The notes beneath the pieces are model-generated. The model was not told the DNA's origin and made no database searches. It saw nothing but the letters and a program-made list of their open reading frames with translations. Positions 57,911 to 62,411 of a stretch of DNA of 64,000 nt are shown in pieces (within the stretch, counting starts at the first letter, position 1; every line of letters begins with the position of its first letter). The translations under genes were made by a program, and so were the position numbers. The DNA comes from Devosia rhodophyticola (GTDB taxonomy: Bacteria; Pseudomonadota; Alphaproteobacteria; Rhizobiales; Devosiaceae): the NCBI RefSeq assembly GCF_028816475.1, contig NZ_CP118247.1, forward strand, positions 2,472,001-2,536,000, read 5' to 3'.

Positions 57911-58118
57911 GAGCGGAGACAATAGGAAGCGCGCCGAGCGGTCAAGGCGCGATTTCCTTGATGTTAACGTCGAAATCTGGCCAAAAATTGTTAGGGTGCG
58001 ACATGATTGCGATCGCCTGATAAATTTTGCATGCGCCACCAAATAGGCAAGCAGATATGAAACACAAGTGTGGTGCGTATTTAGCCGCCCACCAGTTCAA
58101 TTAACCAGAGGCAACAAG

Positions 58119-59135
58119 ATGCAACTTGCAATGATCGGTCTAGGGCGCATGGGCGCCAACATGGTGCGGCGTCTGTTGAAGGCTGGCCATGAATGTGTGG
58201 TGTTCGATCTTGACCCGGCCAATGTTTCCGCCCTCGTCGACGTGGGGGCTGTCGGCGCGACCTCAATGGAAGATGCCGTAGCCAAGGTCGGCAAAACCGG
58301 TGCCGTGTGGTTGATGCTACCTGCGGCGGTGGTTGGTCCGACTGTCGAGAAGCTGGCCGACATGATGCAGGCGGGCGGCATCATCATTGATGGGGGAAAT
58401 TCGTTTTATCATGACGATATCGACCGCGGCGAAGCTTTGGCGGCGCGCGGGATCAACTATCTCGATGTGGGTACCAGCGGCGGCGTGTGGGGTCTTGATC
58501 GCGGTTATTGCCTGATGATTGGCGGCCCGGTCGAGGCGGTCAAACGGCTTGATGCCGTATTCGCGGCGCTTGCCCCTGGTCTAGACAGAGGCGCAGTCCC
58601 TCCTGTCGATGCGCAAAGCACCGCCTATCTGGGCTATTTGCATTGTGGACCAACCGGGGCGGGCCATTATACCAAGATGGTGCACAACGGCATCGAATAC
58701 GGGGTCATGGCGGCCTATGCTGAAGGTATCAACATTCTCAAGGCGGCGAACGAGGGCAAGGGTACGCGTGAGGTTGACGCCGAAACGACGCCCCTGCGTC
58801 ACCCCAAATATTATCAGTTTGATATTGATCTGTCCGAAGTTGCCGAAGTCTGGCGTCATGGCAGCGTTATCGGTTCGTGGCTGCTGGATTTGACTGCACA
58901 GGCGCTCAAGGCCGACGAGGGGCTGACTGGCTTTGGTGGCCGGGTTTCGGACTCGGGCGAGGGACGCTGGACCCTGCAGGCGGCGATTGAAACGGGCGTG
59001 CCAGCTCCTGTCCTGTCTTCGGCCCTGTTTGGCCGGTTCAGCTCGCGCGGCGAATCTGAATTTGCCGATCGGTTGCTTTCGGCAATGCGACTGGCATTTG
59101 GCGGGCATCTGGAAAAACCGGAATCCGATGAGTAG
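58119..59135 (+). CDS. gnd: 6-phosphogluconate dehydrogenase (decarboxylating), short form
   Basis: A 338-aa protein of the GndA/YqeC short group. QLAMIGLGRMGANMVRRLLKAGH is the dinucleotide-binding loop, IIDGGNSFYHDD and LDVGTSGGVWGLDRGYCLMIGG include substrate-binding residues, and GHYTKMVHNGIEYG holds the catalytic Lys. It oxidises 6-phosphogluconate to ribulose 5-phosphate; short forms often prefer NAD+. ATG 58119 has AGAGG upstream; the longer ORF start lacks one. Confidence 0.92.
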   Translation: MQLAMIGLGRMGANMVRRLLKAGHECVVFDLDPANVSALVDVGAVGATSMEDAVAKVGKTGAVWLMLPAAVVGPTVEKLADMMQAGGIIIDGGNSFYHDDIDRGEALAARGINYLDVGTSGGVWGLDRGYCLMIGGPVEAVKRLDAVFAALAPGLDRGAVPPVDAQSTAYLGYLHCGPTGAGHYTKMVHNGIEYGVMAAYAEGINILKAANEGKGTREVDAETTPLRHPKYYQFDIDLSEVAEVWRHGSVIGSWLLDLTAQALKADEGLTGFGGRVSDSGEGRWTLQAAIETGVPAPVLSSALFGRFSSRGESEFADRLLSAMRLAFGGHLEKPESDE

Positions 59136-59250: not shown

Positions 59251-60324
59251 CTAGGCGACGGCGCGGGCGATGACTTTGCGCCGTGCGCTCACGGCGTCGG
59301 CAAGATTATCGAGCACGGTGACGGTGGTTTCCCAATCGATGCAGCCATCGGTAATGGACTGGCCATAGGTCAGGGTCTTGCCGGGGGCCAAATCCTGCCG
59401 CCCTGCGATCAGGTTCGATTCGATCATCGTGCCGATGATGCGCTGATCGCCAGCGGCTAGTTGGGTGCCGACGTTGGCGAGAACCAATGGTTGGTTTTCA
59501 GGCTTCTTGTGGCTGTTGGCGTGGCTGGCATCGACCATTATGGCGGGCCGCACCCCGGCTTGGCTCATTTCCACTGCCACGGCCTCCACACTCTGGGCGT
59601 CGTAGTTCGGCGCTGTGCCGCCGCGCAGGATGATATGGCAGTCTTCATTGCCGCTCGTCGAGGCGATGGCTGAGCGGCCATTCTTGGTGACGGCCAGGAA
59701 ATGATGGGGTTGGCTCGCGGAGCGCATGGCATCGAGCGCGATGCGGACATTGCCATCGGTCCCATTCTTGAAGCCAATAGCGCAGGAGGTGCCCGAGGCC
59801 AGTTCACGATGGATCTGGCTTTCGGTAGTGCGCGCGCCAATAGCCGCCCAGGAGACGAGATCTGCCAGATATTGCGGGGTGGTCATGTCGAGGAATTCGC
59901 AGGCGGCGGGCAAGCCGAGATTGTTGATCTCGAGTAAGAGATTACGCGCCAAGCGCAGGCCCTGATCGATCTGGAAGCTGCCATCGAGACCGGGATCGTT
60001 GATCAGGCCTTTCCAGCCGACAGTGGTGCGCGGTTTCTCGAAGTAAACCCGCATGATGATTTCGAGCCGGTCACCGAGCGTTTCGCGCAGGGCCGCCAGT
60101 TTTCGGGCGTAGTCGAGTGCGGCATCGGGGTCGTGGATCGAACAGGGGCCGACGATTACGGTGAGGCGATCATCGTGACCATGCAGGATATTGTGAACGG
60201 CGTGTCGGGCGCTAAGGACGGTACGGGTGGCAGGGTCAGTGCGGGGGAATTCGCGCATGACATCGATCGGGGTACTTAGTTCACGAATATCAAGGATACG
60301 GAGGTCGTCGGTGGATTTCAGCAC
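59251..60324 (-). CDS. aroG: 3-deoxy-7-phosphoheptulonate (DAHP) synthase, class I
   Basis: A 357-aa class I DAHP synthase of the E. coli AroF/G/H type. VIVGPCSIHDPDAAL, RVYFEKPRTTVGWKGLINDP, GARTTESQIHRELASG, IGFKNGTDGNV and DASHANSHKKPENQ carry the PEP and metal residues. It is the first step of aromatic amino acid synthesis. GTG 60324 with CAGGAG eight bases upstream is chosen; a TTG at 60360 lies inside the terminator T tract. Expression is probably set by the upstream leader-peptide attenuator. Confidence 0.93.
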   Translation of the reverse strand: MLKSTDDLRILDIRELSTPIDVMREFPRTDPATRTVLSARHAVHNILHGHDDRLTVIVGPCSIHDPDAALDYARKLAALRETLGDRLEIIMRVYFEKPRTTVGWKGLINDPGLDGSFQIDQGLRLARNLLLEINNLGLPAACEFLDMTTPQYLADLVSWAAIGARTTESQIHRELASGTSCAIGFKNGTDGNVRIALDAMRSASQPHHFLAVTKNGRSAIASTSGNEDCHIILRGGTAPNYDAQSVEAVAVEMSQAGVRPAIMVDASHANSHKKPENQPLVLANVGTQLAAGDQRIIGTMIESNLIAGRQDLAPGKTLTYGQSITDGCIDWETTVTVLDNLADAVSARRKVIARAVA

Positions 60325-60358
60325 GGTCGTGGCTCCTGATTGGGGACCAACCGGCGAC

Positions 60359-60386
60359 AAAAAAGCCGCCAGTTGAGGCTGGCGGC
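60359..60386 (-). terminator. Leader terminator (attenuator) upstream of aroG
   Basis: On the minus strand an 8-bp stem GCCGCCAG (60386-60379) pairs with CTGGCGGC (60372-60365), with a 6-nt loop and TTTTTT (60364-60359). It lies 35 nt before the aroG start and after the leader peptide stop. The same CTGGCGG occurs earlier at 60447-60441, inside the leader ORF, and can capture the 5' arm as an antiterminator. Confidence 0.85.
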
Positions 60387-60417
60387 GGCTTTTGGGATGA
60401 TTATTTGACTTGGTTGT

Positions 60418-60495
60418 TTAGATCAAGCGCGTCCCTGCCTCCGCCAGTATCGGATAGCTAAAATACCAAAACGAATACGTGGCGGAACGGGTCAT
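60418..60495 (-). CDS. aroG leader peptide rich in aromatic residues (25 aa)
   Basis: A 25-codon ORF with the run YSFWYFSY at residues 7-14: six of eight residues are Tyr, Phe or Trp. It ends 32 nt before the terminator stem. The composition, position before a DAHP synthase gene and mutually exclusive hairpins fit a ribosome-dependent attenuator that senses charged tRNA-Phe/Tyr/Trp. No Shine-Dalgarno is present; the predicted -10 box ends six bases before the ATG, so the transcript may be leaderless, as reported for rhizobial trpL. Confidence 0.8.
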   Translation of the reverse strand: MTRSATYSFWYFSYPILAEAGTRLI

Positions 60496-60501
60496 GGGGG
60501 A

Positions 60502-60530
60502 TTGATAGCGCAGCGGGGTCGACTTGTCGA
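60502..60530 (-). promoter_or_regulatory. Predicted promoter of the aroG leader
   Basis: TCGACA (60530-60525) and TATCAA (60507-60502) on the minus strand are separated by 17 bp, a fair match to a housekeeping sigma-70 promoter. It begins directly after the uvrC stop codon. Transcription would start at or next to the leader ATG. Confidence 0.55.
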
Positions 60531-62411
60531 CTACGACTTTTGATTGAAATGATCGTAGATGAGTTGGGCCATCTGATCTGAAATGCCGGGGACGAGCGCC
60601 AGATCCTGGAGTGAGGCACGCGCAACGGCCTTGGCGGAGCCGAAATGGTTGAGCAGGGCTCGTTTGCGGGTTGGCCCGATGCCGTCGATCTCGTCCAATG
60701 GATTCTTGATCTGATCTTTCTTGCGTTTGGCGCGGTGGGTGCCGATGGCAAAGCGGTGGGCCTCGTCGCGCAGGCGTTGAACATAATAGAGTACCGCGTC
60801 GCGGTGCGGCAGCATGAACGCATCGCGGCCCTCCATGAAGAATTTTTCCCGCCCCGCATCGCGTTCCTCGCCCTTGGCGATGCCGATAAAGGTGACTTCC
60901 TTGGGCAGGTTCATTTCCGCGATGACGCCGCGCACCGCACTCATCTGGCCAGCGCCGCCATCAATGAAAACAACGTCGGGCCAATCCGGCATACCGGTGC
61001 TTTCGTCCTCGTCCTCCGCCTCGCTCTCATTGACAAGGCGGGCAAAGCGGCGCGTCAGCACTTCGCGCATCATGCCAAAATCATCGCCGGGAGTGATGTC
61101 GGTCGACTTGATATTGAAGGTGCGATAGTGCTTTTTGGAAAAGCCTTCCTCGCCCGCCACGACCATGGCGCCGACCGCGTTGGTGCCCGAGATGTGCGAA
61201 TTGTCGTAAATTTCGATGCGGCGCGGCGTTTCTTCGAGACCAAAAAGTTCGGCCACCCCCTCAAGCAGGCTGCGATTGGTGGCGCCTTCTGCCAGTTGGC
61301 GACCAAGTGCTTCGCGCGCATTGTTGAGAGCGTGGTTGACCAGATCGCGTTTTTCACCGCGCCGTGGGGTCTGTACATAAACGCGACTACCGGCCCGACT
61401 TGAGAGTGCCTCTTCAAGCAATTCGGTTTCGATTGGTTGATGGCTGAGGAGAACAAGTTTTGGCGGGGTGCGGCTTTCGTAGAACTGGCTGATAAAGGCT
61501 TCAAGCACCTCAGTTTCGCTCAACGCTGCGTCAGCGCGGGGTCGGAAAGCGTGGTTGCCCCAGTTCTGGAAGGCACGGAAGAAAAATACCTGAACGCAGA
61601 ATTGTCCGCCTTCGTGATGTATGGCAAAGACGTCGGCCTCTTCGACCGATTTCGCCGTGGCGTCGCCCTGACTCTGGATCAACGCCAGCGCACCCAACCG
61701 GTCGCGCAACAAGGCCGCGCGCTCGAAATCGAGATGTTCTGCGGCAGCATTCATTTCACTTTGCATATGATCGCGCACACCTTGAGAGCGGCCGCTGAGA
61801 AATTCGCACGCTTCATCGACCAGTTCGCTATAACCTTCGACTGAAATTTCGCCAGTGCACGGAGCAGCGCAGCGCTTGATCTGATGCTGCAGGCAGGGGC
61901 GGGTACGCGCGGCATAAAAACTATCCGAGCAATTGCGCAGCAAAAAGGCCCTTTGCAGGCTGGCGATGGTGCGGTTAACGGCGGTGACCGAGGCGAAGGG
62001 GCCAAAATAGTGGCCCTTGCGACGACGGGTGCCGCGATGCTTCATCAGTTCGGGTGCTTCGTGATCGGTGGCGATCAGAATATAGGGAAAGCTCTTGTCG
62101 TCGCGCAGCAGCACATTATAGCGCGGCTTTAAGCGCTTGATCAGGTTGGCTTCGAGGAGCAGCGCTTCTGACTCGGTTTCGGTGCGCACAAACTCCATGT
62201 GCGCGGTAGCCGCGATCATGCGCTGGATACGCGTCGGCAGCCCTTCTGGCCGGGTATAGTTTGTGACGCGAGACTTGAGGCTGCGCGCCTTGCCGACATA
62301 GACGACGGTGCCCTCGGCATCAATCATGCGATAGACGCCGGGCGCTGCTGGCAGCGTGCGCACGAAAGCCTTGATGACGTCGGGGCCGGTGGGGATCGTT
62401 GACTCGGTCAT
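60531..62411 (-). CDS. uvrC: Excinuclease ABC subunit C
   Basis: A 626-aa UvrC. The N-terminal GIY-YIG nuclease domain has [19 protein letters not shown] and SRVTNY; the UvrB-binding region and the RNase H-like domain ([33 protein letters not shown]) follow; the C-terminal helix-hairpin-helix pair ends [15 protein letters not shown] and [18 protein letters not shown]. It makes both incisions in nucleotide excision repair. It overlaps the SDR gene by 4 nt. Confidence 0.96.

Follow-up and report, generated by a model that had tools for sequence, protein, structure and literature searches.

How much carbon enters the synthesis of all the aromatic amino acids is set by DAHP synthase. Among the leaders with which its control can be compared, the amino acid of trpL is Trp, and the control codons of Phe_leader (RF01859), the leader of pheA in enterics, are Phe only. 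The nearest known system is that of C. glutamicum, where aroR before aroF is reported to encode a Phe-Tyr-Phe leader peptide and to act by ribosome-mediated attenuation (PMC11802643, citing Neshat et al. 2014); a putative aroF leader peptide of this species is also mentioned in PMC4046766. It shares with the aroG element described here an aromatic leader peptide placed before a DAHP synthase gene, however aroR is actinobacterial, its leader is described in the accessible part of these sources without Trp, and the two are likened by description and not by sequence. In Acholeplasma, uORFC-13-1 is a uORF with a Phe codon and an intrinsic terminator upstream of aroF (DAHP synthase), but it belongs to another lineage, counts 24 representatives, has a ribosome-binding site and is described, in the portion of the source available, as Phe-based (PMC8632094). 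In Vibrio, putative attenuators are listed before aroA-I-alpha-Y > tyrA (Merino database, Table 7, PMC1173090), likewise ahead of a DAHP synthase of type I; the accessible part of that source presents them as prediction only and describes no leader peptide. In E. coli, the DAHP synthase genes are placed under TyrR/TrpR, and attenuation is named for trp and pheA in the available section of PMC5343134. An alphaproteobacterial system of similar kind is trpL of Sinorhizobium meliloti (rnTrpL/peTrpL), reported as a leaderless small ORF at the transcript start (PMC10117765; PMC7298713). Like trpL, the aroG leader is a small ORF, probably leaderless, in a probable alphaproteobacterial attenuator for an aromatic amino acid gene, but trpL controls trpE, and its RNA and peptide are described as having trans functions. 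The accessible parts of PMC2965389, PMC5082802, PMC1273637 and PMC1262725 hold nothing on the aroG element. No description of it was found in the literature searched, which covered few subscription papers, and an earlier prediction, e.g. by Vitreschak et al. 2004, may exist.

The locus lies in a window of 64,000 nucleotides from Devosia rhodophyticola, by which the whole stretch of DNA analysed is meant, and all parts of the element are on the minus strand. The upstream neighbour, outside the element, is uvrC (60531-62411, minus strand, TIGR00194) with its stop at 60531. It is followed by a -35-like hexamer TCGACA (60525-60530), of which GACA is kept in the 109-element alpha alignment, and, after a spacer of 17 nt, by a -10-like hexamer TATCAA (60502-60507). 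The leader ORF of 25 codons plus stop, MTRSATYSFWYFSYPILAEAGTRLI (60418-60495), has its ATG at 60495 and its stop at 60420-60418; the codons treated as control codons in the stall simulation, Y S F W Y F S Y, are residues 7-14 (60454-60477). Segment 1, TCCGCCA (60480-60486), is the partner of TGGCGGA in segment 2 in the minimum free energy fold and is weakly conserved. Segment 2 (60432-60447) consists of the CTGGCGG core (60447-60441) with the antiterminator extensions GGC and GGGA, and segment 3 (60379-60397) of UCCC (60397-60394), GCC (60389-60387) and GCCGCCAG (60386-60379). Segment 4, CTGGCGGC (60372-60365), together with six T (60364-60359) makes up the 3' half of an intrinsic terminator (60359-60372). 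AGGAG at 60333-60337, the ribosome-binding site of aroG, precedes the gene itself (59251-60324, minus strand, GTG start at 60324), a type I DAHP synthase by TIGR00034 (520.5 bits, cut-off 173.2). Its product reaches 550.7 bits against the AroG model NF006723, below the cut-off of 568, and two of the four solved structures that match it best carry Phe-regulated or Phe-sensitive in their names. The initial annotation, made from the letters of the same strand, had placed the promoter-like pair, the 25-codon ORF, YSFWYFSY, the four segments and the six T correctly to the base, and its identification of uvrC and of aroG as a DAHP synthase gene agrees with the two TIGR models. Downstream, at 58068-59135 on the plus strand and convergent with aroG, there is an ORF resembling 6-phosphogluconate dehydrogenase, as judged by eye from its translation.

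An aromatic leader ORF, defined by four or more F/W/Y within nine residues and by its expected place, was present at 182 of 184 related aroG loci of Alpha-, Beta- and one gammaproteobacterium, i.e. at 169/171 loci of a first set and at 13/13 further Devosiaceae loci, five of them from the divergent genus g4. Applied to controls, the scan returned 32 of 560 flank pieces taken at a distance from aroG and, among 840 dinucleotide shuffles, 65; with a stricter count the figures were 163/171 aroG loci against 11/560 and 27/840 respectively. Lack of conservation of the leader ORF, which the initial annotation had named as speaking against an attenuator, was thus not observed (182/184 against 32/560 controls). 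These percentages are not independent draws, because the loci are related and were picked by similarity to the AroG of the window. The 171 loci comprise 80 named ones and 91 from Devosiaceae, with the own genome counted twice and some Devosia contigs in both collections. Removal of duplicates left 145 distinct pairs of leader and terminator (109 alpha, 36 beta/gamma), the split between alpha and beta/gamma having been set by hand from organism labels, with the remaining loci all of the window's family; the 13 extra Devosiaceae loci entered the ORF count and stand outside the structure statistics. Two loci had no leader ORF: L037, which has only 157 nt upstream and starts inside a terminator, and L071, from a MAG labelled Chitinophaga. 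Within Devosiaceae, 106 of 136 genomes have an AroG match, and the leader was found in all 102 in which the upstream region was read, four genomes with fragmentary or weak matches being left out. The other 30 of the 136 have no AroG match, including all listed members of genera g13 and g15, in which absence of the type I enzyme would appear to be lineage-specific.

The alignments give an alpha core TTTTGGTAYTTTAGCTATCCG, a segment 2 of the form GGCGG(A)GG and then CCGCC...GGCGG-T6, and the ORF core is conserved in both the alpha and the beta/gamma alignment. What is conserved changes in character along the element. The peptide after the aromatic codons shifts frame between lineages (PLPAEAIAR, PLRRRLTRA, NGSRWQPEGRV), and the segment-2 motif GG[CT][GA][GC] stands in phase 2 in 121 of the 145 elements, in phase 1 in 21 and in phase 0 in one, the pattern missing two. 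As the motif stays while the reading frame changes, segment 2 seems to be selected as RNA and the part upstream of it as codons. A count of synonymous conservation at the Ser codon was dropped, for the pattern also caught an earlier Ser. Two departures from the usual peptide were seen: at L193 the RNA element is kept with a peptide, read by eye, that has Phe and Tyr only, and Rhizobium-type loci (L038/L052/L073) carry a different peptide, YAYASRFYSY, over the same segment-2 and terminator motifs.

A simpler account would see between uvrC and aroG an ordinary uvrC terminator and a spurious ORF, with no ribosome-mediated switch. The leader ATG stands only 35 nt past the uvrC stop and the terminator is strong, which fits such an account, but flanks of up to 2.5 kb contained uvrC at just 3 of the 80 named aroG loci, and leader and terminator are kept all the same; because uvrC adjoins so few of them, the element can be said to follow aroG. 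A spurious ORF does not agree with a core conserved across classes, nor with the ORFs upstream of other aromatic genes of the own genome, where at most three aromatics occur in seven residues. No comparable leader precedes the type II DAHP synthase, the trpE-like or the PDT gene there: the best ORFs of the first two have three aromatics in seven residues and stop 294 and 276 nt short of the scanned edge, and the scan found no short aromatic ORF upstream of the PDT gene. On this evidence the uvrC-terminator account is extremely improbable. The type II enzyme (G000 C1:515864-517177, L172; PF01474, 700.7 bits) is the second DAHP synthase of the genome, and since it has no comparable leader, aroG would be the regulated one of the two entry enzymes found. 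The same ORF scan gave no aromatic leader for the three DAHP synthase isozyme genes of E. coli K-12.

The protein tree has 84 rows, and 79 named loci together with the window make up a group of 80 with support 100/96, outside which fall L071 and the three E. coli isozymes; 78 of its 79 named rows have the leader, the 79th being L037. The AroG of the window groups with Devosia (97/82). The rows of AroF and AroH are long and their placement is unsure, and gain of the leader cannot be ordered against loss because the tree is rooted at the midpoint only. The AroG of L071 (MAG labelled Chitinophaga pinensis), which lacks the leader, falls just outside the leader-bearing group; it may represent contamination and may serve as a useful outgroup. 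Another record, L013, on a contig labelled Mycobacterium sp. KBS0706, has an aroG that groups with that of Inquilinus limosus (L030, 100/100) and an alpha-type leader, and is probably mislabelled or contaminated. When 385 genomes of the class, the own one included, were searched with a covariance model of the element, 14 full-length matches reached a score of at least 38 bits. Thirteen of them adjoin aroG and the 14th, L188, is at a contig edge; the best short ORF at the 13 has at least five aromatics in seven residues in 11 cases and four in L194, and the remaining one is L193 with its Phe-Tyr leader. Matches at E<=0.01 occur in 156 of the 385 genomes, but most of these rest on weak and mostly partial matches and were not counted as elements. 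In the own genome the window locus scores 121.4 bits, and the next matches, at 17.4 bits or less, are mostly terminator-like pieces.

The promoter-like pair proposed by the initial annotation is present, and its place matches that in relatives; as a promoter it is weak, with 9 of 12 consensus positions by hand count, and the consensus promoter scanner did not report it. Among the 109 distinct alpha elements, in which several matches per element are possible, most of the -35-like matches (146) begin at a distance of 35-38 nt from the ATG, with another 19 at 41, and most of the near TA matches (117) lie 11-14 nt before it. It is this position relative to the ATG in relatives that makes the pair credible. 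The base before the leader ATG is C in 39 of 40 alpha representatives, and an SD-like motif within 16 nt of the ATG occurs in 1 of 109 distinct alpha elements and in 9 of 36 beta/gamma elements. The earlier impression of a leaderless ORF fits these sequence features of alphas, and transcription in this class probably starts at the leader ATG itself, with a predicted start at 60495, its A, in the window.

The terminator is the best supported of the three pairings. Its stretch in the window folds with z -3.9 (0 of 200 shuffles as good), and a permissive search, run without a null, for a hairpin with five or more pairs and a run of four or more T behind it succeeded in 169/169 leader-bearing loci of the first set. 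The terminator of segments 3 and 4 with its six T stands as originally described. The stretch from segment 2 to segment 3 (60450-60379) gives z -4.3 (0/200), and when the RNA that begins just before segment 2 and ends with segment 3 is folded alone it forms an antiterminator of CTGGCGG/CCGCCAG, GGC/GCC and GGGA/UCCC, which confirms the pairing of CTGGCGG with CCGCCAG and makes it longer than the initial annotation had it by the last two helices. In alphas and betas alike, the antiterminator often has a second GGG/CCC helix, set apart from GGCGG/CCGCC by a purine-rich internal loop. The fold of the whole leader has z -3.5 (2/200 shuffles as good), and its minimum free energy structure combines 1:2 with 3:4. 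The claimed 1:2 pairing is seen in this full-leader fold, but its own stretch (60495-60400) is weak, with z -1.8 and 8/200 shuffles as good (z -1.6 and -1.5 with two longer 3' pieces), segment 1 is poorly conserved and the pairing is not general in Devosiaceae. In several members of this family (L003, L093, L103, L113) segment 2 finds its lowest-energy partner immediately 3' of the aromatic codons (AGCUAUCCGC). Either partner of segment 2, the 5' segment or AGCUAUCCGC, would lie under a ribosome that stalls in the core.

Covariation was scored on 38 alphas, i.e. the 40 alpha representatives minus L038 and L045, whose leaders are divergent; 27 of 28 representatives entered the beta/gamma alignment, L075 being left out. 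For the terminator, 92.9% of cells are paired in the 38 alphas, and the covariation score exceeds all 500 shuffles and all slid versions; five of its eight pairs are invariant and three show compensatory change, and the number of further pair types is unremarkable, being reached by 216/500 shuffles. The score of 2:3 (72.6% of cells paired) was reached by 171 of 500 letter-dealing shuffles and that of 1:2, taken as the pairing of the window (55.9% paired), by 132/500, again in the 38 alphas. Both have more cells paired than any slid version, and sliding 2:3 by three columns raises its covariation score from 0.028 to 0.050. Being invariant in the 38 sequences, the central GGC/GCC of 2:3 is uninformative in this respect. 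RNAalifold predicts the terminator only. Columnwise covariation was therefore dropped as proof of 1:2 and 2:3, since the terminator alone stands out; of what the initial annotation had proposed to look for in aligned relatives, the aromatic codons are kept, in the 182 loci counted above, and stems covarying beyond shuffles were found for the terminator only. The 1:2 and 2:3 pairings are conserved as sequence.

Comparison of arms gave a graded result. Own arms paired better than swapped ones in 47/66 cases for 1:2, 54/68 for 2:3 and 68/68 for 3:4, to which relatedness and differences in G+C may contribute. Within alphas the figures were 31/40, 29/40 and 34/40 respectively, and within beta/gammas 15/26 (near chance), 23/28 and 27/28. 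Against dinucleotide shuffles of the arms in 143 elements, p<=0.05 was reached in 20% for 1:2 and in 35% for 2:3, but this duplex-energy test is weak because segments 1 and 3 are C-rich, and segments 2 and 4 G-rich, in any order.

Two other kinds of leader have to be weighed against these results. The leader could control translation or Rho-dependent termination, e.g. by exposing the aroG start; an antiterminator whose covariation score lies within that of its shuffles leaves some room for this, but the hairpin and T run kept in every leader-bearing locus of the first set, if only by a permissive search, and the terminator pairs of the 38 alphas, compensatory where they are not invariant, make it very improbable. 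A metabolite-binding riboswitch or a protein-binding leader for aromatic amino acids is hardly credible: although the core and segment 2 are highly conserved in nucleotides, as such a device would lead one to expect, conservation tracks the ORF with its aromatic codons, the consensus structure holds no element besides the terminator, and Rfam 15 gave no family at gathering score in window positions 59800-61000 or at 13 relative loci. The best Rfam match over the whole element was Phe_leader (24.9 bits, E 0.15, gathering score 55), which the aroG element resembles in overall layout while scoring below its gathering threshold. Matches to asX2, P26, STnc310, RNAI and Bp2_287 were rejected as far below their gathering scores.

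The preferred reading of an attenuator, in which a stalled ribosome sets segment 2 free, was followed in a simulation where the RNA beyond the ribosome, its leading edge fixed 13 nt from the start of the A-site codon, was left free to fold as far as segment 3 reaches. The probability of 2:3 pairing, taken as the mean pairing of segment 3 with the leader, is in the window 0.87 for stalls at Y7 to F12, 0.73 at S13 and 0.36 at Y14; it is irregular at codons 15-18 (0.63 at P15, then 0.30, 0.48 at L17, then 0.20) and 0.00 from E19 onward. The claim that stalling at the aromatic codons frees segment 2 thus holds in the model for Y7-F12, and the pairing is lost once the ribosome has moved beyond the aromatic codons, but it does not hold well for Y14, which is probably too near segment 2 to make a good control codon. 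With no ribosome, and the RNA cut after segment 3, the value in the window is still 0.55. Over 145 elements the median probability was 0.62 stalled, 0.25 free and 0.07 past; stalled exceeded past in 145/145 and free in 135/145. By position, the mean was 0.61-0.65 over the eight codons ending at the last aromatic one and 0.43 at the next. Stalls before the core are nearly equivalent (0.51-0.60 on average, 0.79-0.87 at codons 2-6 of the window), and because they work about as well, only the 3' edge of the effective stall region, which coincides with the last aromatic codon, is informative. When the part that begins with the ATG and ends with the last aromatic codon was shuffled, the free probability of 2:3 rose in 54 of 68 representatives (33/40 alpha, 21/28 beta/gamma); since shuffles of it favour free antiterminator pairing, the real 5' part restrains segment 2 beyond what its composition would do.

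Joint control of aroG by Phe, Tyr and Trp, as the initial annotation had it, is suggested by the codons. The core has all three of F, W and Y in 39/40 alpha representatives against 8/28 beta/gamma ones. In the 36 distinct beta/gamma elements, the core has F in 36, Y in 35 and W in 10, whereas W is found in 106 of 109 distinct alpha elements. As W is general in alphas and scarce in beta/gammas, Trp sensing is proposed for the former and not for the whole clade. The attenuator could be real and yet be controlled by one or two amino acids, e.g. Phe and Tyr, with the Trp codon and the last Tyr as passengers. The lack of Trp in most beta/gamma leaders and the bad position of Y14 are in line with this, as is the C. 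glutamicum case, where aroR with its Phe-Tyr-Phe peptide is reported as enhanced under Phe limitation and Tyr is qualified in the accessible text (PMC11802643). The near-universal W of alphas speaks for a role of Trp, and W10 of the window is placed as effectively as F9 in the simulation (both 0.87). Control by fewer than three amino acids is unlikely, but it deserves serious attention.

Taken together, the stretch upstream of aroG has an ORF rich in codons for the end products, an intrinsic terminator and, in the thermodynamic model, an exclusive antiterminator with a partner that sequesters segment 2; these parts are conserved with aroG, and their folding logic holds in silico. Since an aromatic leader and an off-switch precede the gene in nearly every close relative, ribosome stalling probably decides aroG expression. 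With a probability of roughly 0.88, the stretch would be a ribosome-mediated transcription attenuator sensing charged Phe-, Tyr- and Trp-tRNA. From the sequence and the modelled folds we infer where transcription starts, that the leader is translated, how transcription ends and how each amino acid acts, as follows. RNA polymerase would start at the A of the leader ATG or at a neighbouring base and produce a leaderless message, and a ribosome would translate the 25-codon leader behind it. When charged Phe-, Tyr- or Trp-tRNA is short, the ribosome would stall in Y-S-F-W-Y-F and cover segment 1, the 2:3 antiterminator would form and the polymerase would continue into aroG. When all three are plentiful, the ribosome would run over segment 2 or finish the leader, and the 3:4 terminator with its U6 would end transcription about 135 nt from the start.

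The best reading is that the aroG element is real and widely conserved and belongs to the classical type of attenuator already known, this instance of it being apparently undescribed. A more far-reaching proposal is improbable: the leaderless peptide would be old and common to the alpha and beta members of one AroG clade, it would integrate three aromatic aminoacyl-tRNAs at the entry to the shikimate pathway, lineages would tune it by codon swaps (Trp being kept in alphas and missing in the majority of betas), and both the peptide and the terminated RNA, some 135 nt long, would act in trans, as is reported for rnTrpL and peTrpL. Three-amino-acid sensing and trans action of the leader RNA would, if true, lift the element beyond the known attenuator type. 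The covariance model offers a ready annotation rule for an element whose tested stretches reached the gathering score of no Rfam 15 family, and the aroG leader is a testable case of one leader weighing several amino acids. If the attenuator reading is true, many alpha- and betaproteobacteria would control DAHP synthase by an RNA switch that reads the supply of Phe, Tyr and often Trp.
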